A DNA stretch of 64,000 nucleotides from Jiangella mangrovi (GTDB lineage: Bacteria > Actinomycetota > Actinomycetes > Jiangellales > Jiangellaceae): positions 6,076,037-6,140,036 of the forward strand of contig NZ_JACHMM010000001.1 of NCBI RefSeq assembly GCF_014204975.1, in the 5' to 3' direction. How positions within the stretch are numbered: the stretch's first letter is position 1; each line of letters opens with the position of its first letter. Below the pieces are notes generated by a model that made no database searches, was not told where the DNA came from, and saw nothing but the letters and a program-made list of their open reading frames with translations. Made by a program: the position numbers and the translations under genes. This document shows, piece after piece, positions 42,210 to 58,164 of the stretch.

Positions 42210-43707
42210 TCGCGACGAGCGACCGCGGCGGGACCTGCACCCGCAGGGCGCTCTGCCCGCTCAGCACGACGTCGGCCGGCGTGGACTGGCCGGTGTCACC
42301 CGAGTAGATCTGCTGGTCGACGACCCGGGTCGGCGGCCGGGACAGTCCGCGGACCACCGGGCGCAGTGTGACGTCCCGGTCGGTGAGGTTGGAGACCACC
42401 ACGACCACCTCGGAGCCGACCCGGAACGCCGCCGTGATGACGTCGCGGTCGCTGGTGCTGCCGCGGACCACCGACGTGGCGTGCCCCATGCGCTCCTGCA
42501 TGGTCCGGAACGCGTGGTACGACGGCCGCACCTGCCCGTCGCGGCGGACGATGCCCCAGTTCACCGGCTGCCACGACTGGTCGGTCAGCTCCCACTGGAG
42601 CACCGAGGAGGCACCGTCGGCGAACAGCTTCAGGCCCTCGGTCACCAGCCAGAGCGCGTACTCGGGGTGGTTGAGCCCGCAGACGCCGTTGCGCCGGCCG
42701 GCTCCCGCGGAGCCGTCGTCGCAGTCGTACGGCGCGCTGTTGAACATCGCCCGGTCGCGGTTGGTGTACTCGGTGACGTTGATGCGCAGATCGATGCCGA
42801 GCCGGTCGAGCGCCGCCTGGAACTCGTCGCTCATACCGACCGGGGTCTCGATGCACAGCCGCTCGTCGCACCGGTCGGTGTAGGACGTGTCGTAGTCGTG
42901 CACCGAGAGCGCGGCCAGGTCGTCGATCGCCCCGGTCTCCACCAGGGCGTCGAGGTACGGGACGGCGTTGCGCTGCGACCCGGTGCCGGGGCCCTGGATG
43001 CCGACGTCGGTGAGTCCGTGCGCGTCCAGGGCGTCACGCGTGAGCGTCACCTGCCGGGCGTACTGCTCGGGGGTGAACAGCGTGTTCCAGTACCCGTCCG
43101 GCTCGTTGCCGATCTCGACGAGGTCGGCCGGCAGCCCGATCTCGCGCGCGAACAGCACCTCCGCCGTCACGTAGTTGGCGTACTCGTCGAGGTGGTCGTC
43201 CTCGGCGAAGACGCACCGGGTCGCGTTCTCCGGGCAGTCCGTGGTCCGGACCGTGATCCAGGGCGCCGGCATCGTCCACACGACCATCTGCTGACCGATG
43301 CCGAGCTCGTTCATCACGCCGGTGAGCCGGTCCGCGTTGGCCGGCACCGTCGGCGCCATGAACTCGCGGAACAGCCCGAGGATCGCCTCGACGGAGTGAC
43401 CGGCGGCGTCGAGCCGGTCCGCCGGCACCACCGGCCGCCCGCTGGCCACCCGCACCCAGCGCATCTCCAGCTCGTCGAGCACGCGGTCGCGGCCGTCGGC
43501 GTTCTCGTTGTTCATCCAGACGTTGGACCCGAGGCCGTCGAAGGCATGGGCGTCGTCGAAGTCGTACGTGGTGGCGACCGTGGCCGCCGGCGGGAGCGCC
43601 TCGGCCGGCTCGTCGTCGGCCAGAGCCGGCGGGGCGAGCAGCACGGCCGGGAGGGCGACCGCCAGCAGCGCCAGCGGCCGGCGGGCGGATCTGCGCCGTT
43701 GCGTCAT
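42196..43707 (-). CDS. Secreted clan-A-like glycoside hydrolase (paralogue 1)
   Basis: A 503-residue secreted protein; signal peptide to about residue 30 (ends PPALA). The barrel shows WTMPAPWI, acid/base candidate Glu202 in EIGNEPDGYW and nucleophile candidate Glu313 in NVTEYTNRD, with a C-terminal beta domain (VVVVVSNLTDRDVTLRPV). Two cysteine pairs (DCPENATRC, CDERLC) suggest disulfides. The GNEPDG and TEY motifs resemble GH5/GH30/GH39-type clan A enzymes, but no family could be assigned by eye. It is 13 bp downstream of its paralogue at 43721 with the same orientation. Confidence 0.78.
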   Translation of the reverse strand: MTQRRRSARRPLALLAVALPAVLLAPPALADDEPAEALPPAATVATTYDFDDAHAFDGLGSNVWMNNENADGRDRVLDELEMRWVRVASGRPVVPADRLDAAGHSVEAILGLFREFMAPTVPANADRLTGVMNELGIGQQMVVWTMPAPWITVRTTDCPENATRCVFAEDDHLDEYANYVTAEVLFAREIGLPADLVEIGNEPDGYWNTLFTPEQYARQVTLTRDALDAHGLTDVGIQGPGTGSQRNAVPYLDALVETGAIDDLAALSVHDYDTSYTDRCDERLCIETPVGMSDEFQAALDRLGIDLRINVTEYTNRDRAMFNSAPYDCDDGSAGAGRRNGVCGLNHPEYALWLVTEGLKLFADGASSVLQWELTDQSWQPVNWGIVRRDGQVRPSYHAFRTMQERMGHATSVVRGSTSDRDVITAAFRVGSEVVVVVSNLTDRDVTLRPVVRGLSRPPTRVVDQQIYSGDTGQSTPADVVLSGQSALRVQVPPRSLVAITLS

Positions 43708-43720
43708 ATCGCGTGCCTCT

Positions 43721-45151
43721 CTAGGTGGATGGGCCGAACCGGACGGCCACCAGGGACTGCCCGGGGACGGTGATCGTGTGGGTGGCGGGGTCGGTGACGC
43801 TCTCCTCCGCCGTGTTCCCGGTGCTGACGCGGTAGACCAGCTGCCGCTCGATGGCCGATGTGTCCTGGCTCAGGCCGGCGAACGACGGCGTCAGCGTGAC
43901 GGCGGACGTCGTCAGGTTGGACACCACCACGACCACGTCGGATCCGACGTCGAACGCGGCGGTCACGGTCTGCTGACTGCTGGGGCTCCCGGTGACGGCG
44001 GTCATGTCGCCGCTGAGCTGGAGCAGGAACGGCTTGAACGCGCGGTAGGCCGGCCGGAAGCCGCCGCTGACGTTGATCAGTCCCCAGTTCGTCGTGCCCC
44101 AGGGGCCGTCCTGCAGCTCCCACTGGATCGCGGCGGTGGCGCCGTCGGCGGCCAGTTTCAGGCCCTCGGTGGCCAGCCACAGCCCGTACACCGGCGTGTT
44201 GAGGGCGCACACGCCGTTGACGCGGCCAGCCCCCGCGCCGTCGGAGCAGTCGTACGGCGCCGCGTTCCACTTCGTGCGGTCGCGGTTGGTGTACTCGGTG
44301 ACGTGGATCGGCAGCGTGAGGCCGAGCTCGTCCCAGGCGGCCTGGAACTCGTCGCTCAGCCCGATGGGCGGCTCGAGGCACGGGCGCTCGTCGCAGTCGT
44401 CGGTGTAAGAGGTGTCGTAGTCGTGCACCGAGATGGCGTCGAGGCTGCCGACGGCCCTCTCGGCCACCAGGGCCTCCAGGTACGCGACGGCGTTGCGCTG
44501 CGTGCCGGTGCCCGGTCCCTCGATGCCGACGGACTGCAGGCCGTGCGCGTCGAGCGCGGCCCGCGTCTGCTCCACCAGGTCCGCGTAGTCCTCCGGCTCC
44601 CAGTACGTGTTCCAGTTGCCGTCGGGCTCGTTGGTCAGCTCGACGTACGTGGCGTTCATGCCGTACTGGCGGGCGTAGAGCACCTCGGCCACGATGAGGT
44701 TGACGTAGTCGGCGAGGTGCGCGGTGTTCGCCTCCCAGCAGGTGGCGCAGCCGTTCTGCAGCGTCATCCACGGCTTCGGCATGCTCCAGACGATCTGGTG
44801 CAGCGTCGTGCCGCTGATGTCCTGGACCAGCCCGTCGATCGCCGACGCGGGCAGCTGGTGGTAGGTCTCGAACAGGTCCAGCAGCTCGGCGACGGTGTGG
44901 CCGGTGCCGCTCAGCTCGCTGTCCGGGATGGGCGGACGGGGTCCGGCGGCACGCACATGGCGGTACCTGAGCTCGTCGATGGCCTGTTCGCGCTGGACGG
45001 TGTTCTGGTTGCTGATCCAGACGTGCGCGCCGTAGCCGTCGAAGTCGTGCGCCTGGGAGAAGTCGTAGACGGTCGTGGCGTCGTCGGTGGCGTGGCTCTG
45101 CCCGCCCAGGGGGACGAGCAGCAACGCCGCCAGTAGGGCATGCAGCCGCAT
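43721..45151 (-). CDS. Secreted clan-A-like glycoside hydrolase (paralogue 2)
   Basis: A 476-residue secreted protein with a short signal (MRLHALLAALLLVPLGG...). It parallels the gene at 42196 throughout: WSMPKPWM, acid/base candidate Glu175 in ELTNEPDGNW, nucleophile candidate Glu286 in HVTEYTNRD, HDYDTSYTDDCDERPC and the C-terminal VVVVVSNLTTSAVTLTP. AGGAGG lies 9 bases before the ATG at 45151; longer in-frame readings overlap the next gene. The pair probably attack the same polymer at different sites. Family and substrate are not assigned. Confidence 0.78.
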   Translation of the reverse strand: MRLHALLAALLLVPLGGQSHATDDATTVYDFSQAHDFDGYGAHVWISNQNTVQREQAIDELRYRHVRAAGPRPPIPDSELSGTGHTVAELLDLFETYHQLPASAIDGLVQDISGTTLHQIVWSMPKPWMTLQNGCATCWEANTAHLADYVNLIVAEVLYARQYGMNATYVELTNEPDGNWNTYWEPEDYADLVEQTRAALDAHGLQSVGIEGPGTGTQRNAVAYLEALVAERAVGSLDAISVHDYDTSYTDDCDERPCLEPPIGLSDEFQAAWDELGLTLPIHVTEYTNRDRTKWNAAPYDCSDGAGAGRVNGVCALNTPVYGLWLATEGLKLAADGATAAIQWELQDGPWGTTNWGLINVSGGFRPAYRAFKPFLLQLSGDMTAVTGSPSSQQTVTAAFDVGSDVVVVVSNLTTSAVTLTPSFAGLSQDTSAIERQLVYRVSTGNTAEESVTDPATHTITVPGQSLVAVRFGPST

Positions 45152-45192
45152 CGATCTCACCTCCTCGTGAGTCGGCCGGGGGTGTGCTCGGG

Positions 45193-46587
45193 TCAGCTCC
45201 TTCCGTCGATGCCGGTCAGAACCGTCAGTCCGGCTGAGGGGAGCTCGACGGTCACCGGGCCGGACGGCGCGGTCCTCGTCGCCGCCGGGACCGGGAAGCC
45301 GTCGGCGCCGGCCGGGCGGTCGTCGGCGAAGTACCGGTACTCGGCCAGCGGCGACGTCGTGCCGAGGCCGTCGACGGTCAGCTCGACCCGTCGCGGCTCG
45401 TCGGCGGTGTTCACGACGGCCACCGAGAGCCGCTCGCCCGTCGGGTCGGTCGCGGCGGCCACGCGCAGGCCGGGCGCCCCGGTGGCCGGGACGGCGACGC
45501 TGCGGGCACCGTGCGGGAACGCCGTGCTCAGCGCTGCCCAGGCGTAGCCCCACGGCCGCAGGTCGCGGTCGGACAGCGGGTAGCCGTGGCGGCCGCCGAC
45601 GATGTTCCAGCACCCCCAGCCCTTCAGGTCCAGGGCGCCGTACCCGCCGCCGACGAACATCGCGTCGTCCAGGTTCCAGGCGATGACGCCGGCCAGGCCC
45701 GCACGCAGCGCCTGGACGACGTAGTCGGCCATCCGGACGCCGTAGCGGAACGTCGTGCGGGCGGGCTGACTGTCGTCCGGGCCGGGCCGGGCGATGCCGG
45801 CCTCGCCGATGAAGAACCGCTTGGCCGCGGAGTCGTGGTCGCTGATGTACGCGCGCAGCTCCGCCATCTGAGCCTCGAACGCGCCGCCGTCGAGGTCGCA
45901 CGCGGTGGCGTACCGGTGGATCTCGTACTCGCCGATCACGGAGGACAGCGAGTCGACGGTCGTGGCGACCCAGTGGTCGGCGCCGGTGGTGTCGGGGCCG
46001 ACGATCGAGATCCGGCCGGACAGGCCGCGCCGGTCCAGCTCGGCGGCGAGCGTCGACACGGCCCGCTCCCAGGTCGGCCGGTCGCCGCAGTGCGACCAGT
46101 CGCCGTTCGGCTCGTTGATCAACGTGTAGTACCGGACGTTGCCGTAGCCGCGCACGTCCAGGAGCTGGTGGAGGAAGTCGCCGACGAGCCGCGCCCAGCG
46201 CGGGTCCGTGGCGGTGATGCCGTAATGGTGCAGCGGGTCGCCCGGCGGGCGGTCGCCCACCGCGGACGGGTCGTCCCACTCCCCCGTCACCACGTCGATG
46301 TCGTGCGCCCGGGCGAAGTCGAGCAGCCGGTAGAGCCGGGTCAGCTGCGGGCTGGACCAGTCGTACACCGGCTCGCCGCGCTCGTCGAACCCCTTCGCGT
46401 ACCACCAGGCGCGCAGCATGACGCGGAGCAGCCCGGGCCGCAGCCGCTCGAGCCGCGTCAGCATGGTGTGCCAGTCGTCGTCGCCGAGGTCGAACCACTC
46501 GTAGGGCCCGGCCTGCATGCCGAGGCCCAGCAGGCGCGGCTCCAGCGTCGCGCCGGCGTCGACGGTGACGCGGCAGGTGACCGTCAT
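45193..46587 (-). CDS. Cytosolic clan-A glycoside hydrolase
   Basis: A 464-residue protein without a signal peptide. Acid/base candidate Glu159 is in TLINEPNGDW and nucleophile candidate Glu262 in FFIGEAGIARPG; LLRVMLRAWWYAKGFDE and GVIAWNLDDAMF are further barrel landmarks, and a C-terminal beta domain follows. It would act on oligosaccharides imported by the adjacent transporter. Its ATG (46587) overlaps the stop of the epimerase gene by 4 bp. It resembles cellulase/GH39-like barrels, but the family is not certain. Confidence 0.78.
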   Translation of the reverse strand: MTVTCRVTVDAGATLEPRLLGLGMQAGPYEWFDLGDDDWHTMLTRLERLRPGLLRVMLRAWWYAKGFDERGEPVYDWSSPQLTRLYRLLDFARAHDIDVVTGEWDDPSAVGDRPPGDPLHHYGITATDPRWARLVGDFLHQLLDVRGYGNVRYYTLINEPNGDWSHCGDRPTWERAVSTLAAELDRRGLSGRISIVGPDTTGADHWVATTVDSLSSVIGEYEIHRYATACDLDGGAFEAQMAELRAYISDHDSAAKRFFIGEAGIARPGPDDSQPARTTFRYGVRMADYVVQALRAGLAGVIAWNLDDAMFVGGGYGALDLKGWGCWNIVGGRHGYPLSDRDLRPWGYAWAALSTAFPHGARSVAVPATGAPGLRVAAATDPTGERLSVAVVNTADEPRRVELTVDGLGTTSPLAEYRYFADDRPAGADGFPVPAATRTAPSGPVTVELPSAGLTVLTGIDGRS

Positions 46588-47606: not shown

Positions 47607-48971
47607 ATGAGGCTCAGCAGGAGACGGTTCCTCGGTGCGACGGTGATTCCCGCGGCCGCCGCGCTGACGGGCGTGGGGGCGGGAGTGGGGGCGAGCGTGG
47701 GAGCGGCCCGGACGGCCGCCGCGAACGGCGCGACCCCCTTCGACGTCCTGCTCTTCGGCGGTCAGTCCAACGCCGGGCCGGCGCCCGCGGGCGGCATCTC
47801 ACCGCCGCTGCTGGGCGCGGAGTTCCCGGCCTCGGCGCTCACGTTCGCCGGCACGAAGGGCTACGCGCCCGGACGCACGCTGCTCGACGGCGCCGCGCTC
47901 ACCGCCCTGGCGCCCCAGGACGACCGCCCGTGGGGCGCTCAGCTGGCCGCCACCGCCATGTCCTTCGCCCTCGAGAACGGGCACCTCGCCGACGGCACGG
48001 CCTCGCCCGGCTACTTCGCCTTCTCCGCCGGCGAGGGCGGTGTGCCGCTGGAGTACCTGACCCGCGGCGCCGAGGCGAGCGGCCACTTCAGCTTCGTCAA
48101 CACCCTCGCCGCCGCGAGCCGGGTCCAGCCGGTGCTGGGCACGGCCGGCGGGTCCGGCGTCTGCCACGCCTACGTCTTCATCCACGGCGAGAACGGGCCG
48201 ACGGCGGTGTCGCCGCCCGACCTCGCCACCAAGCGCACGGTGTACCGGACGATGCTCGCCGCCTACGCCGACGACGTCACGGCCGAGCTCCAGTCGCGGC
48301 TGGGGCAGACGTTCCCGCCGGAGTTCGTACTGCTGCAGACCAACGCCCCGGACCACCAGGTGCTGCCCACGTACGACCCGTACCTGGCAGGCGGCGTGCT
48401 GGCCCAGCTCGATCTGGCCCGCGAGCGGCTGGGCCAGGGCGTGACGATGGCCGGCCCGGCGTACCACACGCGGCTGGCCGACAGCGTCCACACCGACAAC
48501 CTGGGCCGGCTGATCGTCGGCGAGCTGCTCGCCGAGGTCTACCGCACGATCCGCGCCGGTGCGACGTTCCAGCCGCTGTGGCCCACGTCGGCGACCCTGC
48601 GCGGCCGGATCGTACTGATCAGGTTCGAGGTGCCCGGCGGCCGGCTGCTCCTCGACACCGACTGGGTGGCGCCGGTCCCCCACTACGGCTTCACCTACAG
48701 CGACGACGCGTCGTCGGCCACCATCGAGTCGGTCGAACTGGCCTCGTCGAACACCGTGTGCATCAAGCTCTCCGCGCAGCCGACGGGCACCCGCCCGGTC
48801 ATCCGGTACGCCCTGGGCAACGAGCAGCCGCTGACCCAGGACCACTGGTCGTCGGCCCGCGGCCAGCTCTACAGCGACAGCGGCCGGCCGTCGCACTACG
48901 CCGCGGCCGGCTTCCCGATCCCGCCGACGGTCCGGCACTACGCCGTCAGGTTCGACGCGCCGCTGTCGTGA
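47607..48971 (+). CDS. Tat-exported SGNH/sialate-O-acetylesterase-like hydrolase
   Basis: A 454-residue protein with a twin-arginine signal (LSRRRFLGATVIPAAAAL). The SGNH layout is visible: block I FGGQSN with Ser54 as nucleophile, FIHGEN around Asn196, and the terminal Asp292-Ser-Val-His295 (DxxH). A C-terminal beta domain (about 325-454) follows. GQSN-type enzymes deacetylate carbohydrates such as sialic acid or xylan. ATG 47607 has GGAGGG six bases upstream; an earlier in-frame ATG at 47577 overlaps an operator. Its stop overlaps the next GTG, coupling it to the CoA-transferase module. Confidence 0.78.
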   Translation: MRLSRRRFLGATVIPAAAALTGVGAGVGASVGAARTAAANGATPFDVLLFGGQSNAGPAPAGGISPPLLGAEFPASALTFAGTKGYAPGRTLLDGAALTALAPQDDRPWGAQLAATAMSFALENGHLADGTASPGYFAFSAGEGGVPLEYLTRGAEASGHFSFVNTLAAASRVQPVLGTAGGSGVCHAYVFIHGENGPTAVSPPDLATKRTVYRTMLAAYADDVTAELQSRLGQTFPPEFVLLQTNAPDHQVLPTYDPYLAGGVLAQLDLARERLGQGVTMAGPAYHTRLADSVHTDNLGRLIVGELLAEVYRTIRAGATFQPLWPTSATLRGRIVLIRFEVPGGRLLLDTDWVAPVPHYGFTYSDDASSATIESVELASSNTVCIKLSAQPTGTRPVIRYALGNEQPLTQDHWSSARGQLYSDSGRPSHYAAAGFPIPPTVRHYAVRFDAPLS

Positions 48972-50068
48972 CGACCACCCTGCGGGTCCTGTGCTGGGAC
49001 CATCCCCGCTGCACCGGGCCCATGACCGCGGCCGCGGCCGCCTACCGGTCGGTGCGCCCGGACGTCGCGCTGGAGTGCGGCGTCCGGCCGCTGGCGGCGT
49101 TCAACGACCAGCCGCCGTGGGCGGTCCCGGACGGTTACGACCTGCTCCTCGTCGACCATCCGATGACCGGCGCGGCGGCGGAACGCGGCGCCCTGGTCCC
49201 GCTGGACGCCGTCCTGCCGCCGCAGCGGCTGGACCGGATCGCCGCGGAGTCGATCGGGCACGACGCCTACGCCTGGGCCGGTCACCAGTGGGCACTGAGC
49301 GTCGATGTCGCCTGCCAGGTGGCCGTGGTCCGGCCCGACCGGCTCGACGCCGTGCCCCGGACCTGGGACGACGTGCTCGGGCTCGCCCTGCGGGCGCCCG
49401 GCGCGGTCGCGCTGCCGCTGGCCCCCGCGGACGCCCTGTGCACGCTGATCTCGCTGTCGGCCAACGCGGCGCTCGCCGCCAGCGACGAGCCGCACTGGCT
49501 GCGACCCGAGGCGGTCGAGTTCCTCGTCGCGCTCGCGCGCGTGGTCACCCCGGCGTCCTTCGAGCTGACCCCGCCACAGGTGCTCGAGCTGATGGCCGGG
49601 GACGGTGTCGTGGCCTACGCGCCGTTCGTGTTCGGCTACGCCGTCGCGGCCCGCCCGCCGCTGGCGTTCGCCGACATCCCCGGTGTCGACGGCCGCCCGT
49701 ACGGCGCGATCCTCGGCGGCGCCGGGCTTGCCGTCCTGCCCGGCCGTCCGCACGTCGCGGAGGCGGCGGAGTTCGCCGCCTGGTGCCTGGACGCCGAGGT
49801 CCAGCGCGACGTCCTGTTGCCGGCCGGCGGCCAGCCGGCGCACCGGGCGGTCTCGAGACACCCCGCGTCGGGTGACTTCTTCCGCGACACCCGGCAGAGC
49901 CTGGCGCACGCGTTCGTGCGCCCGCGCGACGCCTGGTGGCCGGAGTTCCACCGCGAGGCGGGCCTGTCGCTGGCGGAGTCGCTACGGTCCGGCGAGCGTC
50001 CCGCGTCGATCCACCGCCGGCTCGCCACCCTGGCCGGCCGGCACCGCGAAGGGGTGATGTCACAGTGA
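48968..50068 (+). CDS. Solute-binding-protein-like protein lacking an export signal
   Basis: A 366-residue protein with the class II binding-protein look of CUT1 binding proteins (TLRVLCWDHPRCTGPMTAAAAAYRS split by DGYDLLLVDHP, WALSVDVACQVAVVRPDRLDAVPRTWDDVL, GAGLAVLPGRPHVAEAAEFAAWCL). No Sec or Tat signal, lipobox or membrane segment is present; the protein starts directly at the first strand. GTG 48968 overlaps the upstream stop (GTGA), so an unseen signal upstream is excluded. It is followed, again with overlap, by two CoA-transferase genes and an SDR. A cytosolic ligand carrier, sensor or acyl-acceptor scaffold are possibilities; none is demonstrated. Confidence 0.75.
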   Translation: MTTTLRVLCWDHPRCTGPMTAAAAAYRSVRPDVALECGVRPLAAFNDQPPWAVPDGYDLLLVDHPMTGAAAERGALVPLDAVLPPQRLDRIAAESIGHDAYAWAGHQWALSVDVACQVAVVRPDRLDAVPRTWDDVLGLALRAPGAVALPLAPADALCTLISLSANAALAASDEPHWLRPEAVEFLVALARVVTPASFELTPPQVLELMAGDGVVAYAPFVFGYAVAARPPLAFADIPGVDGRPYGAILGGAGLAVLPGRPHVAEAAEFAAWCLDAEVQRDVLLPAGGQPAHRAVSRHPASGDFFRDTRQSLAHAFVRPRDAWWPEFHREAGLSLAESLRSGERPASIHRRLATLAGRHREGVMSQ

Positions 50069-51825
50069 GCGCGGTCTGGGCCGACGACGTCGCGTCGCTC
50101 GTCGCGGACGTCCCGGCGGGCGCCCGCGTCGGCGTCAGCGGCTTCCACTTCACCCGCGCGCCCGTGGCCGCGCTGCTGGCGCTGGCCGACGCCGGCGTCC
50201 GCGACCTGCACTACGTCGCCTGGGGCGGCGGGCTGCCCCTCGAGATCCTGCTCGGCCGGGGCGCCGTCACCCACGCGACGCTCTGCTTCTCCAGTCTCGA
50301 CGTGCTCGGGCCGGCGCCGCGGTTCCGCCGCGCCGTCGAGTCCGGCGCCCTCGCCCTGAACGAGCAGACGGCGCTCGGCCTGATCAGCGGGCTGCGGGCC
50401 GCGGGCGAGAACCTGCCGTTCGAGGTGTTCCAGGAACCGGCGGGCTCGTCGCTGGCCGACGGCTTCAGCGCCCCGGCACCCGATCCGTACGGGTCCGGCG
50501 GCGCGCCGCTGCGGGCGGTCCGGCCGGTGCCGCTCGACGTGCTCCTGCTGCACGCACAGCGCGCCGACGACGACGGCAACGTGGAGCTCGCCGGCGCGCG
50601 CGGCCTGGACCTGCCCGCGATCTTCGCCGCACGCCGGGTCCTGGTCACCGTCGAGGAACGCGTCCCCCGGGGGTCCCTGGGCGCCGCCCGGTCGTTCGTC
50701 CTGCCGCGGACGTTCGTCAGCCGCCTGGCCGTGGCGCAGTTCGGCGCGTACCCGACCTCGTGCCTGCCCTACTACCCGGCCGACTACCGCGCCCTGCGCA
50801 CCGTCGTCGATGCCGATCCCGCGGCTCCGGTGCCTGAGGAGGCGCTGCGCCCGTCGCCCGCCGTCCGGCCCGCACTGGCCCGGCGGGCAGCGGTGCCGGC
50901 GAGGTCGGTCGGCGCCGGGCTCCGCGCGCTGGCGACCGTCGCCGCCGACGCGCCGTACACCATCGACGAGCTCATGGTGGCGGTCCTGGCGCGGACGATC
51001 GGACCCACGGGCGTCTGCTCGTTCGGGTCCGCCAGTCCGCTGCCCACCGCCGCGTACTTCCTGGCCAAACACCTCTGGGCGCCGGACCTGCTGCTCATGT
51101 CGCACAACGGCGGCCTCGTGGACGTGCCCGTGCGCCCGCTCGCGCTGGCGGCGTCCGAGCAGCTCGACCACGAGCTGGCCGCCGCGCACACCGGCGGCGA
51201 CGAGACGTACCACTGGTACTACCAGCGCGGCCTCGTGACGCACGAGGTCGTGGGGTCGGCCCAGGTCGACGGCCGCGGCGCCACCAACAACCTGTGGGTC
51301 GCGAAGAGCGACGGCACGCCGGTGCGACTGCCCGGGCAGGGCGGCATGGCCGACGTCGCCAACCTGCACGCGAACTTCATGATCTACCTGCCGCGGCAGA
51401 GCACCCGCAACACCCCCGCCCGGGTCGAGACGGTGAGCGCGCGGCGGGCCTGGCACGACCCGGACCAGCGGCGGCGGTTCGGCTTGCAGCCCGGGCGCAC
51501 CCTCGTCGTCACCGACCTCGCGGTCTTCGAGGACGACCCGGCGGACGGGACGCTGCGGCTGCGCAGCCTGCATCCCGGCGTCTCGCTCGACGACCTGCGC
51601 GCACGGACCGGCTTCGACGTCGTCGTCCCGCCCGGCGCCGGCACCACCGAGCCGCCCACGCCCGACGAGCTGCACGCCCTGCGGACCGTCGTCGACCCGC
51701 TCGGCGTCCGGCGCCTCGACCTCGTCGGCGCGGCCGACCGGCAGCGGCTCGTCGACCGGATCCTCGACCTCGAAGAGACCGTCCTCGACCCACCGACCAT
51801 CCGGAGCGCCGATGCCGTCCACTGA
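50065..51825 (+). CDS. Fused alpha-beta class I CoA-transferase-like protein (IpdAB/GctAB family)
   Basis: A 586-residue protein joining both subunits of a glutaconate CoA-transferase/IpdAB-like enzyme: alpha-like half about 1-290 (GVSGFHFTRAPVAALLALADAG, VAWGGGLPLEILLGRG) and beta-like half about 305-586 (YTIDELMVAVLARTI, GSASPLPTAAYFLAKHLWAPDL, RLPGQGGMADVANL). At the position where class I transferases have the catalytic Glu in SENG, this protein has SHNG with His347. Glu100 (LNEQT) in the alpha half could correspond to the alpha-subunit Glu used by the IpdAB ring-opening hydrolase. A C-C bond hydrolase or altered transferase is therefore possible. GTG 50065 overlaps the preceding stop. 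Confidence 0.8.
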   Translation: MSAVWADDVASLVADVPAGARVGVSGFHFTRAPVAALLALADAGVRDLHYVAWGGGLPLEILLGRGAVTHATLCFSSLDVLGPAPRFRRAVESGALALNEQTALGLISGLRAAGENLPFEVFQEPAGSSLADGFSAPAPDPYGSGGAPLRAVRPVPLDVLLLHAQRADDDGNVELAGARGLDLPAIFAARRVLVTVEERVPRGSLGAARSFVLPRTFVSRLAVAQFGAYPTSCLPYYPADYRALRTVVDADPAAPVPEEALRPSPAVRPALARRAAVPARSVGAGLRALATVAADAPYTIDELMVAVLARTIGPTGVCSFGSASPLPTAAYFLAKHLWAPDLLLMSHNGGLVDVPVRPLALAASEQLDHELAAAHTGGDETYHWYYQRGLVTHEVVGSAQVDGRGATNNLWVAKSDGTPVRLPGQGGMADVANLHANFMIYLPRQSTRNTPARVETVSARRAWHDPDQRRRFGLQPGRTLVVTDLAVFEDDPADGTLRLRSLHPGVSLDDLRARTGFDVVVPPGAGTTEPPTPDELHALRTVVDPLGVRRLDLVGAADRQRLVDRILDLEETVLDPPTIRSADAVH

Positions 51826-52978
51826 GCCCACCGGCCCGCTGTCCCACGTGCGGGTGCTCGACTTCACCCAGCTGCTGCAGGGCCCGCTGGCCACCCAGAT
51901 CCTCGGCGACCTCGGCGCCGACGTCGTCAAGGTCGAGAAGCCGGACGGCGAGTGGATGCGCTCCTGGGGCATCCTGGCCAGCACCACCGGCGGCGAGATG
52001 GACAGCTTCCTCGCCTTCAACCGCAACAAGCGCAGCGTCGCCGCCGACCTCAAGGACCCGGCCGTGCGGGACCGGCTGCTCGAGCTGGGCCGCGACGTCG
52101 ACGTCGTCGTCGAGAACTTCCGGCCCGGCGTCATGGACCGGCTCGGACTCGGCTACGACGACTTCGCCGCAGTGAACCCGGGCGTCGTCTACGCCAGCTC
52201 CAGCGGGTACGGGCAGACCGGCCCCTACCGGGAGCGGCCGGGTCAGGACCTGCTCGTCCAGGCGCTGGCCGGTGCCCTGCACCTGACCGGCCGCCGCGAC
52301 GACCCGCCGACGCCCAGCGGCATCGGGATCAGCGACGAGTACACCGGCCTGCATCTGGTGGTGGCGATCCTGGCCGCGCTCAGCCACCGCCAGGCCACCG
52401 GCGTGGGCCAGCGGGTCGCCGTCGACCTGTTCTCCTGCACGATCGCGGCCCAGCAGCAGGAGCTCACCGTCTGGCTGAACCACGGCGACGCCATGCCGCG
52501 TGCGGCGGAGAACGTCGGCCACGTCGGCGCCACCGCGCCCTTCGGCACGTACCCGACCCTGGACGGCCACCTCGCGCTGGCGATGATGCCCTGCCCGCGG
52601 CTGGGGGCGATCCTCGGCGTGGGCTGGCTCGACGAGTTCGACACCAACGACACGATGTTCGCCGGCCGCGACGTCGTCCATCGCCGGCTGTCGGCACACT
52701 TCGCCACCGACACCACGGCGGCGTGGCTGAAGCTGCTCGACGAGCACGACGTCTGGTGCGCCCCGGTGCAGGACTACGCGGCGCTGGAGGACGATCCGCA
52801 GGTGCGCCACGCGGGCCTGCTCTGGGAGGTGCCCATCGGGGCCGGCGGCGCGACGTTCCGCACCGTCGGGTCCCCGTTCACGTTCTCGCGCACGGCGCCG
52901 TCCCTGCGTCGCGGCGTGCCGCGCGCCGGCCAGCACACCGACGAGATCCTGGCCGCCGCCGACGAGGAGGTCCGATGA
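51812..52978 (+). CDS. CaiB/BaiF (class III) CoA-transferase
   Basis: A 388-residue family III CoA-transferase. LDFTQLLQGPLATQILGDLGADVVKVE and VVENFRPGVMDRLGLGYDD are family signatures, and the catalytic aspartate is Asp146 in RPGQDLLVQ. The enzyme moves CoA between carboxylic acids through an aspartyl-CoA thioester. Its ATG overlaps the end of the fused CoA-transferase gene by 14 bp and its stop overlaps the SDR start by 4 bp. The acid substrate is unknown; the context suggests a carboxylate released or formed from a glycan. Confidence 0.9.
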   Translation: MPSTEPTGPLSHVRVLDFTQLLQGPLATQILGDLGADVVKVEKPDGEWMRSWGILASTTGGEMDSFLAFNRNKRSVAADLKDPAVRDRLLELGRDVDVVVENFRPGVMDRLGLGYDDFAAVNPGVVYASSSGYGQTGPYRERPGQDLLVQALAGALHLTGRRDDPPTPSGIGISDEYTGLHLVVAILAALSHRQATGVGQRVAVDLFSCTIAAQQQELTVWLNHGDAMPRAAENVGHVGATAPFGTYPTLDGHLALAMMPCPRLGAILGVGWLDEFDTNDTMFAGRDVVHRRLSAHFATDTTAAWLKLLDEHDVWCAPVQDYAALEDDPQVRHAGLLWEVPIGAGGATFRTVGSPFTFSRTAPSLRRGVPRAGQHTDEILAAADEEVR

Positions 52979-53760
52979 CACCGCAGCGGTTCTCGGGCAA
53001 GGTGGCGGTGGTCACCGGCGCCGGTGCCGGTATCGGCCGCGCCGTCGCCGTCCGGCTGGCGGCCGAGGGTGCCGCCGTCGCTGTCCTCGACCTCGCGGCG
53101 GCGGCCGCCGCGGACACCGTCGCGGCGATCACCGACGCGGGCGGGCAGGCGCTCGCCGTCGCGGCCGACGTCGCCTCGCCGGACGACGTGCATGCCGGCG
53201 TCCGGAGCACGGTCGCGGCGTTCGGCGGCATCGACGTGCTGGTCAACAACGCCGGGGTGGTCAGGTACGGCACGGTGCCGGAGCTCTCGGTCGAGGACTG
53301 GCACCTGACCCTCGCCACGAACCTGACGGGGACGTTCCTCACCTGCAAGTACGCCATCCCCGAGATGCGCGCGCGGGGCGGCGGCGCCATCGTCAACACG
53401 GCGTCGGCGCAGGCGTTCGCCAGCCAGCCGCTGGTGGCCGCGTACGCGGCGTCCAAGGGCGCCGTCGTCGCGATGACCCGCTCCCTCGCCGTCGACCACG
53501 CCGCCGACGGCATCCGGGTCACCTGCGTGTGCCCGGGCTCGGTCGAGACACCCATGCTGCGCTACGGCGCCGAGCTCCTGGGCGACGGGGACGCCGTCGC
53601 CACCATGCGCGATTGGGGCCGCCAGCACCCCATCGGCCGGCTCATCCAGCCCTCCGACGTCGCCGCCCTGGTCGCGTTCCTCGCCAGCGACGACGCCGTC
53701 ACCATCACCGGTGCGCCCTACCTGGTCGACGGCGGGCTCCTCGCCCGGCTCGGCGTCTAG
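52975..53760 (+). CDS. Short-chain dehydrogenase/reductase
   Basis: A 261-residue classical SDR. The cofactor loop is TGAGAGIG (residues 14-21), the NNAG motif is at 91-94, and the catalytic Ser144, Tyr157 and Lys161 are present, with CPGSVETPM after the active site and GAPYLVDGG near the end. Asp39 after strand 2 suggests NAD rather than NADP. It closes the coupled operon that starts with the esterase at 47607. It probably oxidises a hydroxyl on the CoA ester or on the sugar acid; the substrate is not known. Confidence 0.9.
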   Translation: MTPQRFSGKVAVVTGAGAGIGRAVAVRLAAEGAAVAVLDLAAAAAADTVAAITDAGGQALAVAADVASPDDVHAGVRSTVAAFGGIDVLVNNAGVVRYGTVPELSVEDWHLTLATNLTGTFLTCKYAIPEMRARGGGAIVNTASAQAFASQPLVAAYAASKGAVVAMTRSLAVDHAADGIRVTCVCPGSVETPMLRYGAELLGDGDAVATMRDWGRQHPIGRLIQPSDVAALVAFLASDDAVTITGAPYLVDGGLLARLGV

Positions 53761-53812: not shown

Positions 53813-55741
53813 TCAGCGCGTGATGCGGTCCAGCGGGAGGTAGAGCACGGGCTCGGCGTCCGCCGGAGCGTCACCGGCGGCCAGCGCCGCGATCTCGTCG
53901 GCGCCGAGAGCCCGATCGAACATCCAGACATCATCGACGGCGCCGTCCAGCGGGTTGTTGATGCCGTCGACCCGCGAACCGATGCGGATGCCGGTGAGCG
54001 CGCCTGCCGACACCGAGCCCGCGACCGGTGCGGACGTCCCGAGCGGCTCGCCGTCGACGTAGATCGTCACGGCGTCGTCGCCGCGGGTGAGGGCGACGTG
54101 GTGCCAGGCGCCGTCGGCGTAGTCGCCCGCGGCCGTCACGAACCTGGTCTCGGCGCCGGTGTTGACGTGCCCGCGGATGCGGCTCTGGTCCGGCTCCAGC
54201 CGGATCCACCACTTCGGGTCGACGTCCCGGTTGGAGTGCGCCCAGACGATCGTCTGGACCGCGGTGCTGTCGGTGCGGAACCAGGCCGCCGCCGTGAAGG
54301 GGCCGTCGCCGAACTCGAGGGCGGGCTCGGCCGGGATCTCGACGTAGTCGCCCGCCAGGTCCAGACCGGAGCCGACGACGCCGCCGACGCGCCGGGGCGT
54401 TCCGCTGATGACCGCGTCGAACCCGCGGCCGGACGCGTCGGGCGTGGTCCTGGGCGGCGGGGACGGGGCGTCCAGCGTGGGCACGATCACCCGGGCGAAG
54501 CTGATCCGCTGGTGATAGGTCAGCGTCGCGCCCTCGCCCAGCCGGTCGCCGTTCTCGTAGATCACGCCGAGCCGGCGCGCGTTCCCGTGGTCGTCGACCT
54601 GGACCAGGTCGGAGTATCCGGACGGGCCGTCGTAGACGACCGGGCCGCGGACCCAGCTGCCGGCCTCGTCGAAGCTGGACCACAGCGTCAGGTTCTCGCG
54701 CGCCGTCGGATGCCCCGGGGCGGCGAACACGAGCCGCTCGCGCCGGTCGGCGTCGCGCGACAGGCCGAGGATCGAGCCCTGGACGACCGGTGCCACGATG
54801 TCCGTGACCTCCTGGTACGGCGTGTCGAACGACGCACCGCCGTCGCTGCTGAGGGTGCCGGCCCGGGCGCCGACGCTGGTCCCGTTCTGGTCGCGCGCGT
54901 TGAAGTACAGCGTGCCGTCGCTCAGTTCCACGACGGTGTTCTCGTTCGGGTTCACCACACCCTCCGGCGTCGTGTCGACGCCGCCGAGGTGCCAGGTGGT
55001 GCCGCCGTCGTCGCTGTACAGCGAGTGCGCGCCGAACAACCGGTCGTCGGTGCACGCGATGTCCGAGCCGGGCGGCGGGGCGGCCGAGTGGTTGCCGGGC
55101 ACGACCAGCCGGCCGGCGTGCTCGCCCTGGGTGATCTGGATCCCGTGGCCGGGCCCACCGACGAAGTGCCGCCAGTCGGCCGGCTTCACGTCAGCGGTGA
55201 TCTCCACCGGATCGGACCAGGTGGCTCCGTGGTCGTCGCTGTGGAGGACGAACGACCGCCGGGTCTGCTCGGCGTCGGCGCGGCCGCAGCGGATGTCGTC
55301 GCCGGAGACGTCGCCGCCGGTGCGGGTGACGTTCAGGACGATGCGCCCGGTGCGCTCGTCGACGATCGGGACCGGGTTGCCGAACTTGTCCGGCCCGGCG
55401 TCGGCGACCACCTGCAACGGCCCCCAGGTCCGGCCGCCGTCGGCCGAGCGCTTGAGGACCAGGTCGATGTTGCCGTCGTCACCCGGGCTGTCGACCCGGC
55501 CCTCGGCGAAGGCCAGCAGGGTGCCGTCCTGTGCCTGGGCGACGGCCGGGATGCGGAAGGTGTGGTAGCCGTCCTGGCCCCGGCTGAAGACCGTGCTCTG
55601 CTCGATCGCCCGTCCGGGTGGGGCGTCGGCCGCCGATGGGGACCAGCCCGCGCCGGCCGGTCCGGGCACGGCCGCCAGGGCGAGCCCGGCCAGGCCGGTC
55701 ACGGCGAGCAGGCGGGTGGTGCGACGTGTCGTGGTCGACAT
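53813..55741 (-). CDS. Secreted GH33 exo-alpha-sialidase with C-terminal LamG-like domain
   Basis: A 642-residue secreted protein with signal peptide to about residue 31. The six-bladed sialidase propeller (about 45-425) has the FRIP motif (TFRIPAV with Arg63) and at least four Asp-boxes (SADGGRTWG, SDDHGATWS, SDDGGTTWH, SSDGGASF), plus FAEGR and ENGDR. Residues about 440-640 form a concanavalin/LamG-like jelly roll (FTAAAWFRTD, WHHVALTRGDDAVTIYVDG). It releases terminal sialic acids from glycoconjugates. It is the last gene of an operon with sulfatase, sialic acid lyase and a transporter, which supports true sialidase activity. Confidence 0.92.
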   Translation of the reverse strand: MSTTTRRTTRLLAVTGLAGLALAAVPGPAGAGWSPSAADAPPGRAIEQSTVFSRGQDGYHTFRIPAVAQAQDGTLLAFAEGRVDSPGDDGNIDLVLKRSADGGRTWGPLQVVADAGPDKFGNPVPIVDERTGRIVLNVTRTGGDVSGDDIRCGRADAEQTRRSFVLHSDDHGATWSDPVEITADVKPADWRHFVGGPGHGIQITQGEHAGRLVVPGNHSAAPPPGSDIACTDDRLFGAHSLYSDDGGTTWHLGGVDTTPEGVVNPNENTVVELSDGTLYFNARDQNGTSVGARAGTLSSDGGASFDTPYQEVTDIVAPVVQGSILGLSRDADRRERLVFAAPGHPTARENLTLWSSFDEAGSWVRGPVVYDGPSGYSDLVQVDDHGNARRLGVIYENGDRLGEGATLTYHQRISFARVIVPTLDAPSPPPRTTPDASGRGFDAVISGTPRRVGGVVGSGLDLAGDYVEIPAEPALEFGDGPFTAAAWFRTDSTAVQTIVWAHSNRDVDPKWWIRLEPDQSRIRGHVNTGAETRFVTAAGDYADGAWHHVALTRGDDAVTIYVDGEPLGTSAPVAGSVSAGALTGIRIGSRVDGINNPLDGAVDDVWMFDRALGADEIAALAAGDAPADAEPVLYLPLDRITR

Positions 55742-55771
55742 CGTGCTCCTTCCTCTCGAGGGGGCAGTGCG

Positions 55772-57229
55772 TCAGAGTTGGTGCCGAAGACGTTCAGCGA
55801 CGGCGGCGGCGAACAGCTCCTGCCGGGCCGCGCGGTCGGTGGTGGTGACGGCGCCGCGCTGCGGGGCGGCGGGGTCGACATAGGTGGGTGGTGTCGCGTC
55901 GTACAGAGCCCATCGCGCCGCTGCCTCGCGCATCCGCCGCAGCTGGTCGCCGTGTGCCGGATCGCCGACGAGGTTCGTCAGCTCGTACGGGTCGGCGGCC
56001 AGGTCGAAGAGGGCCTCGCCCGCGGCGTCGGACCACAGCAGCTTGTGGCTGCCGGTGCGGACCATCCCGGCGACGCCGTGCCGGCGGTCCTCGGCGAGGA
56101 CGTGGTCGTGCCCGGCGGCCGGATCGCCCAGGTCCTGGCCCGGCAACGGCGTCGTCGGCGCCACGCCGCACGCGGCGAGGACCGTCGGGGCGACGTCGAC
56201 CAGCGAGGCGAGCGCGTCCGAGACCTCACCCCGTCGCCGCTGCCCCGGGAACTTGGCCAGCAGCGGAACCTTCACCACGGGGTCGTACATCGGCCCGTCC
56301 TTGAGCAGGAGGTGGTGGAAGCCGAGGTACTCGCCGTGGTCGGCGGTGAAGACGATCAGCGTGTCGTCGTACAGCCCGCGCCGCCGCAGCAGGTCGAGCA
56401 TGCGCCCGACCTCGTGGTCCAGGTGCGTGATGGTGGCGTAGTAGTGCGCCATCACCTGCCGCAGCCGCGGCAGGTCCAGCGGCTCGTAGTCGAAGTACTC
56501 CCGCCGGTGCCGCTGGTCGGCCGCCGGGATCGTGTCGGTCCAGCCGGGCAGCGGGGTCAGCGCCGCCGGGTCGTACAGGTCGTCCCACCCGGCCGGCGGG
56601 TCGAACGGGTGGTGCGGCTTGACGAACGAGACGTGCAGCAGGTGGTCGCCGGTCTCGGTCCAGCCCGTCAGCACCTGCCGCGCCCGCTCGCCGATCCAGC
56701 TGGTGGAGTGCCACTCCTCCGGCAGGTTCGACCGGCCGGTGCCGTACGTGTCCCAGTAGGACGGTGGCGCGGTGGCGCGGAACTCGTGCTCCTGGTCAGT
56801 CAGGTCGGTCACCGGCGCCAGCCCGGCCGCCGCCAGCTCCCGGTGGTAGTCGTCGTCGTACCGGCCGGGGCCGTCCTGCTCGGCCAGCTCCAAGCGGTCG
56901 TAGCCGACGTCGAGGTAGGTGGGCGTGAAGTGCATCTTGCCGACCGCGGCCGTGTCGTACCCGGCCCGGCGCAGCGCGCGCGGGAAGGTGTCGATGCCGG
57001 GGGCGAGTGTGCAGCGGTTCGACCAGCCGGCGTGCTGGCGGACGTGCAGGCCGGTCAGCAGCGAGTACCGAGACGGGGTGCAGACGGGGAACGAGCAGTA
57101 CGCGTTGCGGTAGCGCACGCCGTCGCCGGCCAGCCGATCCAGGTGCGGGGTCCGCACGTCCGGGTTCCCGGCCGCGCCGAGGCAGTCCGCCCGGAACTGG
57201 TCGGCCTGGATGATCAGGACGTTCGTCAC
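55772..57229 (-). CDS. Type I formylglycine-dependent sulfatase, cytosolic
   Basis: A 485-residue alkaline-phosphatase-superfamily sulfatase. The formylglycine consensus is CTPSR with Cys50; Asp10-Gln11 and TADHGEYLG supply metal ligands, and FVKPHHPFDPP and KVPLLAKFPG are family blocks. There is no signal peptide, so it would act in the cytosol and need a formylglycine-generating enzyme encoded elsewhere. GTG 57229 is two bases after the lyase stop. Its place between sialidase and sialate lyase suggests desulfation of sulfated sialic acid or of glycan fragments imported with it; this is inference, and other sulfate esters are possible. Confidence 0.88.
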   Translation of the reverse strand: MTNVLIIQADQFRADCLGAAGNPDVRTPHLDRLAGDGVRYRNAYCSFPVCTPSRYSLLTGLHVRQHAGWSNRCTLAPGIDTFPRALRRAGYDTAAVGKMHFTPTYLDVGYDRLELAEQDGPGRYDDDYHRELAAAGLAPVTDLTDQEHEFRATAPPSYWDTYGTGRSNLPEEWHSTSWIGERARQVLTGWTETGDHLLHVSFVKPHHPFDPPAGWDDLYDPAALTPLPGWTDTIPAADQRHRREYFDYEPLDLPRLRQVMAHYYATITHLDHEVGRMLDLLRRRGLYDDTLIVFTADHGEYLGFHHLLLKDGPMYDPVVKVPLLAKFPGQRRRGEVSDALASLVDVAPTVLAACGVAPTTPLPGQDLGDPAAGHDHVLAEDRRHGVAGMVRTGSHKLLWSDAAGEALFDLAADPYELTNLVGDPAHGDQLRRMREAAARWALYDATPPTYVDPAAPQRGAVTTTDRAARQELFAAAVAERLRHQL

Positions 57230-57231
57230 GG

Positions 57232-58164
57232 TCAGTGGCCCGTGTCGAGGAAGCCGAGCTCCGTCACCTCGGCGCGCAGCAACGCCAGCTGCTCCGGCCC
57301 GGGTGACACCAGGGGCGGCCGGCAGCCACCGCAGTCGACCCCGCTGAGCGCGCCGAGCGCCTTGAAGCCGGCCAGCTCGCCGCCGTACCGCGCGGCCGTG
57401 TCGATGACCTGCTGCGCCAGCTGCTGGCCCGCCCGGGCCTCGGCCAGCTCGCCGCGGACCGCGTGGTCGAGCAGGCGCCGGAACAGCGGACCGGCGAAGT
57501 TGTACACCGACCCGATCGCGGCCCGGGCGCCCGACTGCCAGGCGGCGAGCACCAGCTTGGCGACCCCGACGAAGACCTCGTGCTGCCCGCCGGCGAGATG
57601 CAGGCAGCGCTGCAGGTCGACCATGTCGTTGTGGGCGAACTTCACGCCGGCGAACGTCGGGATCTTGTCCCGCGCGACCAGCAGCACGTCGCTGGCCCGC
57701 AGGTTCACCCCCGTCATCGAGGGGATGTGGTAGTAGGTGAACGGCAGCCCCGGCGCGGCGTCGGCGATGGCCGCGCAGGCGTCGACCAGCGCGGCCACTG
57801 TCTCCGGACGGTGGAAGTAGGGCGCGACGGCGGAGATCGCCTTGGCGCCCGCGGACTCGGCGTGCGCGGCCAGCCGGCGGGCCTCGACGAGGCTGGAGTG
57901 TCCGACGTGGACGATGACGTCGAGCCTCCCGTCGGCGACCTCGCACCACCGCTCAGCCAACGCCATGCGTTCCTCGGTCGACAGCGACGCCCCCTCACCG
58001 GCGGTGCCGCCGATGTACGCCGCCGCCGAGCCCCAGGCGACCAGGTCGTCGGCCTGCTTCTGCACGGTGTCGAGGGCAAGCCCACCGGTCTCGGTGAACG
58101 GGGTGAACACGGCGGTGAGCAGCGCCATGTCGGGGCCGTCGGTGGAGTAGCGCAACCCGGTCAT
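57232..58164 (-). CDS. nanA: N-acetylneuraminate lyase (NanA family, DapA superfamily)
   Basis: A 310-residue TIM barrel of the dihydrodipicolinate synthase/N-acetylneuraminate lyase group. The Schiff-base lysine is Lys175 in AGVKFAHND and the catalytic tyrosine Tyr145 in FTYYHIPSMTGV; the carboxylate-binding loop is GGTAGEG (52-58). The YYHIP...GVKF pattern is closer to the Bacteroides/vertebrate-type sialate lyases than to DapA. It splits N-acetylneuraminate into pyruvate and N-acetylmannosamine. Context with GH33 sialidase and a transporter supports the call; activity on another 2-keto-3-deoxy acid remains possible. No nanE or nanK is in the window. Confidence 0.87.
   Translation of the reverse strand: MTGLRYSTDGPDMALLTAVFTPFTETGGLALDTVQKQADDLVAWGSAAAYIGGTAGEGASLSTEERMALAERWCEVADGRLDVIVHVGHSSLVEARRLAAHAESAGAKAISAVAPYFHRPETVAALVDACAAIADAAPGLPFTYYHIPSMTGVNLRASDVLLVARDKIPTFAGVKFAHNDMVDLQRCLHLAGGQHEVFVGVAKLVLAAWQSGARAAIGSVYNFAGPLFRRLLDHAVRGELAEARAGQQLAQQVIDTAARYGGELAGFKALGALSGVDCGGCRPPLVSPGPEQLALLRAEVTELGFLDTGH

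Follow-up and report, generated by a model that had tools for sequence, protein, structure and literature searches.

A signal-less solute-binding-like protein linked to coenzyme A enzymes in Jiangella mangrovi and other bacteria: location, gene linkage and possible role

The window analyzed here is a stretch of 64,000 nt from the Jiangella mangrovi contig NZ_JACHMM010000001.1 (positions 6,076,037 to 6,140,036, forward strand), and it carries an operon of five plus-strand genes, the second of which encodes SBP*, a protein with the fold of CUT1-type solute-binding proteins (SBPs) and no visible export signal. SBP* is, with high confidence, an intracellular protein and not a transport receptor. 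It was found in Actinomycetota, Alphaproteobacteria, Bacteroidota and Chloroflexota, and its gene is tied to genes of coenzyme A (CoA) enzymes, above all the class III CoA-transferase CaiB. Our leading reading, which is held tentatively, is that SBP* is an enzyme derived from an SBP and acts on a CoA route for sugar acids.

Fold and cellular location of SBP*

The first-pass annotation, which was made from the sequence of the window, had described five genes joined by overlaps of 4 or 14 bp, and this was confirmed from the DNA, where overlaps of 4, 4, 14 and 4 bp were read along the chain (Table 1). When the products were compared with Pfam, the second matched SBP_bac_8 (7.6e-11) and SBP_bac_1, the third CoA_trans, the fourth CoA_transf_3 (9.9e-101) and the fifth adh_short. 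The AlphaFold2 model of SBP* (mean pLDDT 96.1) consists of the two-lobed type II binding-protein fold alone, with no DNA-binding, signalling or membrane domain, and strand 1 occupies residues 3-10. The nearest solved folds were those of MalE3, TMBP, LpqY and SmoF, at 13-21% identity (Foldseek, VIA-align). The label SBP* is used below for the whole family, which has the N-terminal motif WDHPR.

A protein search with SBP* returned 370 homologues. In the best 120 of these, an LCWDHPRC-like sequence was found at the first strand, later-starting fragments excepted, and no obvious export signal was seen. One entry available as a protein only (P0245) has about 90 extra N-terminal residues, which by eye appear part-MaoC-like and unlike a signal peptide.

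A start test was applied to the gene-called members (62, in 60 of 61 loci drawn from genomes, plasmids and named contigs), and it covers the 59 that have an upstream in-frame stop and a readable motif. In 37 of these 59 genes no ATG, GTG or TTG is available more than 20 aa ahead of W10, so that a signal would not fit; in 22 genes, at most 24 codons are open ahead of W10. A start further upstream is possible in the other 22 genes, many of them in GC-rich DNA with long chance frames, so that the test is uninformative for those. The window gene belongs to them, with a frame open for 505 codons upstream of W10, and a longer start is therefore excluded by its relatives and not by the window alone. 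The earlier argument that a missed signal is unlikely, drawn from the overlap of the GTG with the preceding stop, thus gained from the closed frames of the relatives and nothing from the window frame itself. On the same closed frames before W10, a start-site artefact was rejected.

As a control, the secreted SBPs of the same loci were compared; 13 of the 15 had hydrophobic N-termini, and the other 2 look mis-called. Hydropathy alone gives no full separation of SBP* from the secreted SBPs, since two SBP* values (1.77, and 2.05 for P0052, an entry that begins within the protein) are higher than the lowest of the other control values, 1.59. Across homologue N-termini, start test and hydropathy, the lipobox or signal peptide by which a CUT1 receptor is exported was not found in SBP*. 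The earlier description of a CUT1 fold that starts at its first strand without an export signal was upheld by the model, the homologue N-termini and the start test.

An ordinary ATP-binding cassette (ABC) receptor, with its signal lost or mis-annotated, would account for the CUT1-receptor fold and homology of SBP*, some sugar-site residues included, and for the ABC permease or ATPase genes found within 6 genes of SBP* in 33 of 62 cases. However, a permease-type gene immediately adjoined SBP* on the same strand in just 1 of 62, and in several SBP* loci the nearby transporter sets have a secreted SBP of their own. Moreover, no match to a MalG-type permease was obtained at E 1e-8 in a profile search of all 7 SBP*-bearing Bacteroidota genomes; the same profile gave 112 matches in the genome of the window (G000) and 10 in G202. 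The genome of the window is itself rich in permeases, and the test for a cognate permease was there one of gene order only. Based on the start test with its 37 closed genes, the secreted controls, gene order and the MalG-type search, the transport-receptor reading was rejected; it is largely refuted and highly improbable, and SBP* is very probably not part of a transporter. The 112 MalG-type matches in G000, some of them partial, represent a very large set of CUT1-like importers.

Linkage of SBP* to CaiB and a hydratase or lyase

Linkage was counted by a six-frame search of 61 loci containing 63 SBP* genes, with L055 dropped as a copy of L031. This count was preferred to the gene calls (CaiB in 52 of 62), which in L038 and L039 had missed a CaiB located immediately upstream of SBP*; L085 was also recovered. 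CaiB was found within the locus DNA of 55 of the 63 SBP* genes. For 53 genes it lies on the same strand and no more than 3 kb away, for 32 no more than 150 bp away, and 6 of the 8 SBP* genes without CaiB sit no more than 2.7 kb from a contig end. The two genes overlap by exactly 4 bp in 24 of 62 cases (gene-called set); in S. meliloti R14, SBP* follows CaiB with a 4-bp overlap.

A third slot, scored within 5 kb of SBP*, was filled by MaoC (25 genes), by an enoyl-CoA hydratase (21) or by CoaT1f, a fused class I CoA-transferase fold (6); it was empty in 11, and no SBP* gene had two types together (0/63). CoaT1f fills the slot in the window operon. When the third-slot labels were placed on the SBP* tree, at least 5 changes were needed for the 51 single-label genes, as compared with a shuffled mean of 20.8, and the slot has therefore been refilled several times and inherited in between. 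In the tree of 77 CaiB sequences (trees were rooted at midpoint), the 55 from SBP* loci grouped together, joined by 4 of the 22 others, which came from five genomes; the remaining 18 stood apart. SDR genes were frequent around SBP* in the loci compared. These counts show that the tie between SBP* and acyl-CoA enzymes proposed at first pass is real and extends across phyla, and the linkage recurs in other genomes and is not peculiar to this one. Of the two findings that the first-pass annotation had named as refuting it, neither plainly secreted homologues nor a gene order confined to this genome was observed.

The two CoA-transferase families named by the first-pass annotation fared differently. 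In the window CaiB, PF02515 covers the whole chain and the catalytic Asp position is kept (Asp175); Asp was present at this position in 55/55 CaiBs from SBP* loci and in 22/22 others. For the window CaiB and the two CaiBs of L082, every NCBIfam equivalog listed was below cut-off. The best solved relatives of CoaT1f were AibA/AibB (6.5e-29 and 7.8e-21), followed by glutaconate CoA-transferase and by 6coj/6con, which we take to be IpdAB. The CoA_trans fold is present in CoaT1f, and the class I catalytic Glu of the beta half is missing; its place is taken by His347, which was found in 4/4 aligned members. At the AibB residue aligned to His347, the solved variants have Cys, Asn, Ser, Ala or Val. 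A catalytic role for the CaiB Asp is described in the available part of PMC9196870. According to the available part of PMC7756340, AibB has Cys56 where glutaconate CoA-transferases have their conserved catalytic Glu, and the replacement of Cys56 did not abolish activity. Judged from its sequence, CoaT1f is probably a CoA-thioester lyase or hydrolase and not a transferase, which fits its standing in for MaoC or enoyl-CoA hydratase.

Profile searches for SBP*, with the seed genome counted in each, covered 393 genomes of the class of the window (SBP* in 20), 289 from the class of Bosea (in 6), 295 from the class of Allomuricauda (in 7) and 201 from the phylum of a Thermomicrobiales metagenome-assembled genome (in 2). 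Six of the 20 same-class genomes belong to one family (f25), with a genome size of 1.5-1.9 Mb. A search of plasmids gave 145 SBP* records, 90 of them from Sinorhizobium. The pSymB plasmid of Sinorhizobium meliloti 1021 (NC_003078.1) carries a CaiB-SBP* pair, with SBP* at 732456-733565.

Further arrangements were observed. In Bosea and a Rhizobiales relative (L044:10001-12321 and L045:10001-12321), two different SBP* genes stand in tandem after CaiB and enoyl-CoA hydratase genes. A second SBP* gene of the window's genome (L059, G000:C1:6771247-6772308, minus strand), from a different SBP* branch, is part of a CaiB-SBP*-MaoC operon with CUT1 permeases nearby. Also in this genome, a run without SBP* was found beside a CUT1-type transporter (L115:8999-14846), in which a CaiB of the SBP* group is accompanied by enoyl-CoA hydratase, MaoC, SDR and a 510-aa protein that is CoA-transferase-like by eye. 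A second signal-less SBP family, SBP2 ('RIAIRKFDPFES'), was found in 7 loci (L006, L060, L062, L081, L082, L084 and L086), which contain CaiB and mostly Gfo and MaoC. The search with SBP2 returned 2022 homologues; none of the best 120 had a hydrophobic N-terminus, and the organism-named entries among these 120 were nearly all from Flavobacterium.

Conserved site and possible role of SBP*

Near-invariant residues of SBP* that were not so in the 15 secreted SBPs are W10, H12, L42, F45, D63, H64, P65, Y101, G253, Q289, W296 and R318, although this is a loose comparison, the secreted proteins being of mixed kinds with different ligands. W10 was found in 58/58, H12 in 55/58 and R14 in 58/58 of the members with letters there (secreted SBPs: W10 in 2/15, R14 in 10/15), and D63, H64 and P65 in 62/62, 61/62 and 62/62. 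Pairwise identity within the family has a minimum of 25% and a median of 35%. In the model, W10-R14, the 40-47 stretch and D63-P65 lie at the ends of strands 1, 2 and 3, and in the binding-protein fold such strand ends face the ligand cleft.

SBP* is pictured as a CUT1-type SBP that would have lost export and ABC transport and would now, in the cytosol, belong to a catabolic module that breaks down acids derived from sugars, probably those of 6-deoxyhexoses, by way of CoA thioesters. In such a module the sugar would be converted to a lactone and then to an acid, CaiB would transfer CoA to the acid from a donor thioester, and the third-slot hydratase or lyase (MaoC, enoyl-CoA hydratase or the AibAB-like CoaT1f) would act on the thioester. 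The conserved cleft of SBP* would bind the acid or its CoA ester, and SBP* would most likely catalyze a step, such as elimination or isomerization, with SDR and Gfo enzymes carrying out oxidation or reduction. Here the substrate class, the order of the steps and catalysis by SBP* are what we infer. Most cytosolic proteins that consist of this fold by itself are enzymes, and catalysis was ranked first for this reason and because the site is more constant in SBP* than in the 15 secreted SBPs. It was ranked first also because an SBP-turned dehydratase is known (PMC7683729, available part).

Several observations weigh against a catalytic SBP* in a module of this kind. No test brought out catalytic residues, and no activity of SBP* is recorded. 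D63 and R318 also occur in trehalose/maltose binders (1eu8, LpqY) and were withdrawn as family-specific residues on these alignments; they may mark a sugar-like ligand, and part of the conserved site may simply bind sugar. D113, too, is a residue that some receptors share. R318-P319 is likewise found in 1eu8, LpqY and MalE3. The window SBP* has Ser296 where 61 of 62 members have Trp. Some loci were picked with an LCWDHPR-containing pattern, which inflates the motif conservation there, although members from the profile-based genome searches carry the same residues. L050 and L076 have full flanks, yet their SBP* has no CaiB. Of the 4 other CaiBs that fall in the SBP*-linked group, two (L109, L091) are additional CaiBs at a distance of about 10 kb from SBP* loci, and the remaining two have no SBP* link, with no SBP* in the surrounding DNA (L107 in G000; L099 near a contig end). 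The loci are, in addition, not independent samples.

The main rival, close behind catalysis, is that SBP* is a non-catalytic partner of CaiB, a specificity subunit that captures the acid acceptor or shapes the acceptor site; we consider it quite possible, if somewhat less probable. It is suggested by the 4-bp CaiB-SBP* overlap across several phyla, a direct coupling no less compatible with a subunit than with catalysis, as well as by the CaiB-SBP* pair of the Sinorhizobium locus L007, near which no hydratase was found, and by the CaiBs of SBP* loci forming a group of their own. Four loci (L006, L081, L082 and L084) have two CaiBs and two signal-less SBPs, which suits a subunit equally. On the other hand, SBP* adjoins MaoC and is 4-5 genes away from CaiB in six small-genome Actinomycetes loci, the two full-flank loci above lack CaiB, and we know of no precedent for carriers of soluble acids to CoA-transferases. 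No full-length CaiB-SBP* fusion was found with a CaiB+SBP* query, which gave 14 candidates (419-495 aa, scored on the SBP* part), 7 of which were inspected. The sole inspected candidate with a CaiB domain, P0253, was discounted as a fusion for apparent frameshifts in several places; P0241 and P0246, which run into sequence that is MaoC-like by eye and have apparent frameshifts, were discounted as well.

The first-pass annotation had proposed a cytosolic carrier or sensor handing a carboxylic acid to CoA activation. The conserved polar site and the lack of an output domain are no less compatible with an enzyme or a subunit of one; enzyme, carrier and sensor cannot be separated from sequence alone, and the earlier interpretation as a whole is partly supported. 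A cytosolic sensor of a pathway intermediate would keep a two-lobed ligand-binding fold, as SBP* does, and LacI, GntR and IclR regulators are frequent in the loci, but the absence of DNA-binding, signalling and membrane domains, together with same-strand neighbours that are mostly enzymes and include one LacI (gene-called set), makes this improbable.

Substrate clues, known systems and implications

Clues to the substrate lie next to SBP*. In the Flavobacterium locus L082, the run SBP*-CaiB-CaiB-SBP2-Gfo-MaoC-FucP is oriented divergently to the genes of ADH and L-fucose dehydrogenase and to one that is fuconolactonase-like. Both FucP and L-fucose dehydrogenase scored above the cut-off; the lactonase is the best match but below it. 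RhaT is present in L085, and GH95 in L038 and its cluster mates; other SBP* loci have lactonases, enolase-type dehydratases, FAH hydrolases and RraA. From these neighbours, the substrates of the module are likely 6-deoxyhexose acids. It is less likely, though possible, that the acid on which CaiB, the hydratase and SBP* act has no relation to 6-deoxyhexoses, a view that concerns the substrate and is compatible with the other readings. Gene content varies among the loci, the Sinorhizobium pair is bare, the Nitratireductor copy has uronate genes beside it, and neither a fucose nor a rhamnose gene was recognized within the window operon or next to it, all of which suits an unrelated acid; FucP, L-fucose dehydrogenase and the fuconolactonase-like gene of L082, RhaT and GH95 speak against it. 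In the genome of L082 (G785), fucose isomerase was not found and enolase-type matches were limited to two, at about 107-109 bits; other SBP* Bacteroidota have stronger enolase matches or an isomerase match. The module is not claimed as an exclusive fuconate route, as other genomes differ and IlvD/Edd-type dehydratases lay outside the search.

The first gene of the window operon, named at first pass as part of the set, did not hold its place there. Its product gave no match in Pfam or NCBIfam at E 0.1, and the label SGNH therefore relies on a GGQSN-like motif; the N-terminus has a twin-arginine-like RRRFLG. No homologue was found at E 1e-3 in other SBP* loci, and the gene is thus placed outside the conserved module. 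Around the operon, three consecutive minus-strand proteins (42196-46587) gave no Pfam match at E 1e-3 and are glycosidase-like by eye, the first two clustering together, and the operon is followed on the minus strand (53813-58164) by a BNR-repeat and laminin-G protein, a sulfatase and a DHDPS-family protein.

Table 1. Features of the SBP* operon (window positions) and an example of SBP2 (locus position)
Feature	Position	Strand	Remarks
Putative secreted SGNH-type esterase	47607..48971	+	ATG 47577 alternative start; 4-bp overlap with SBP*; outside conserved module
SBP*: signal-less CUT1-type binding-protein fold, 366 aa	48968..50068	+	GTG start; Pfam, model, Foldseek, VIA-align
W10-D-H-P-R-C15 codons, family motif at strand 1 end	48995..49012	+	
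D63-H64-P65 codons, strand 3 end	49154..49162	+	H64-P65 family-specific
R318-P319 codons	49919..49924	+	62/62 each
CoaT1f: fused class I CoA-transferase fold, AibAB-like	50065..51825	+	GTG start; Pfam, alignment; probably not transferase
CoaT1f His347 codon	51103..51105	+	Aligns with AibB Cys56 / glutaconate CoA-transferase Glu
CaiB: class III CoA-transferase, group of SBP* loci	51812..52978	+	Pfam, NCBIfam, tree
CaiB Asp175 codon, catalytic Asp position	52334..52336	+	
SDR oxidoreductase	52975..53760	+	Pfam adh_short; NCBIfam search
SBP2 example	L082:5828-7084	minus	

Compared with known systems, SBP* shares its fold with the CUT1 sugar binders LpqY, TMBP, MalE3 and SmoF, but it has no visible signal or lipobox and no dedicated permease, carries extra family-specific residues and is coupled to CoA enzymes. 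The window CaiB has full-length PF02515 and the Asp in common with class III CoA-transferases (CaiB/BaiF, formyl-CoA transferase, succinate-glutarate CoA-transferase), but it and the two L082 CaiBs are below the cut-offs of the equivalogs listed for them, and the CaiBs of SBP* loci are a group of their own. The 3-methylglutaconyl-CoA decarboxylase AibA/AibB is the best solved relative of both halves of CoaT1f, and the class I Glu is replaced in both; unlike AibA/AibB and IpdAB, CoaT1f has its halves fused in one chain, and His instead of Cys at the key position. The non-phosphorylative L-fucose and L-rhamnose pathways have dehydrogenase, lactonase, FAH and enolase-type genes that also occur in many SBP* loci, but to our knowledge they use neither a CoA ester nor an SBP. 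Cyclohexadienyl dehydratase is an enzyme that evolved from an SBP (PMC7683729, available part), and by analogy it may serve as a precedent for a binding-protein fold turned catalyst, the kind of event proposed for SBP*. Its descent from amino-acid-binding proteins has no counterpart in SBP*, which matches only SBP_bac_8 and SBP_bac_1 (Pfam, E 0.1). As the earlier annotation had stated, no established pathway with this gene set turned up in the literature searched, and no description of a signal-less SBP coupled to CaiB was found in open-licence sources, including the available parts of PMC7756340, PMC9196870, PMC7683729 and PMC5395668, which is weak evidence of absence.

In its fullest form, put forward as a possibility held more loosely than catalysis itself, the proposal is that SBP* is a new enzyme family that arose from an ABC sugar receptor and that, with CaiB and one of three interchangeable hydratase or lyase types, would form an undescribed CoA-thioester route for 6-deoxyhexonates (L-fuconate, L-rhamnonate), present in at least four phyla and kept in streamlined Actinomycetes genomes of 1.5-1.9 Mb. 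The named entries of the family bear labels such as 'extracellular solute-binding protein' or 'multiple sugar transport system substrate-binding protein', and these would be mis-described if SBP* is a cytosolic enzyme or subunit. If the proposal is true, a CoA-dependent branch of deoxysugar breakdown would have been overlooked, and SBP* would be a clear example from nature of a transport receptor taken over for catabolism, with a site that can be tested residue by residue.

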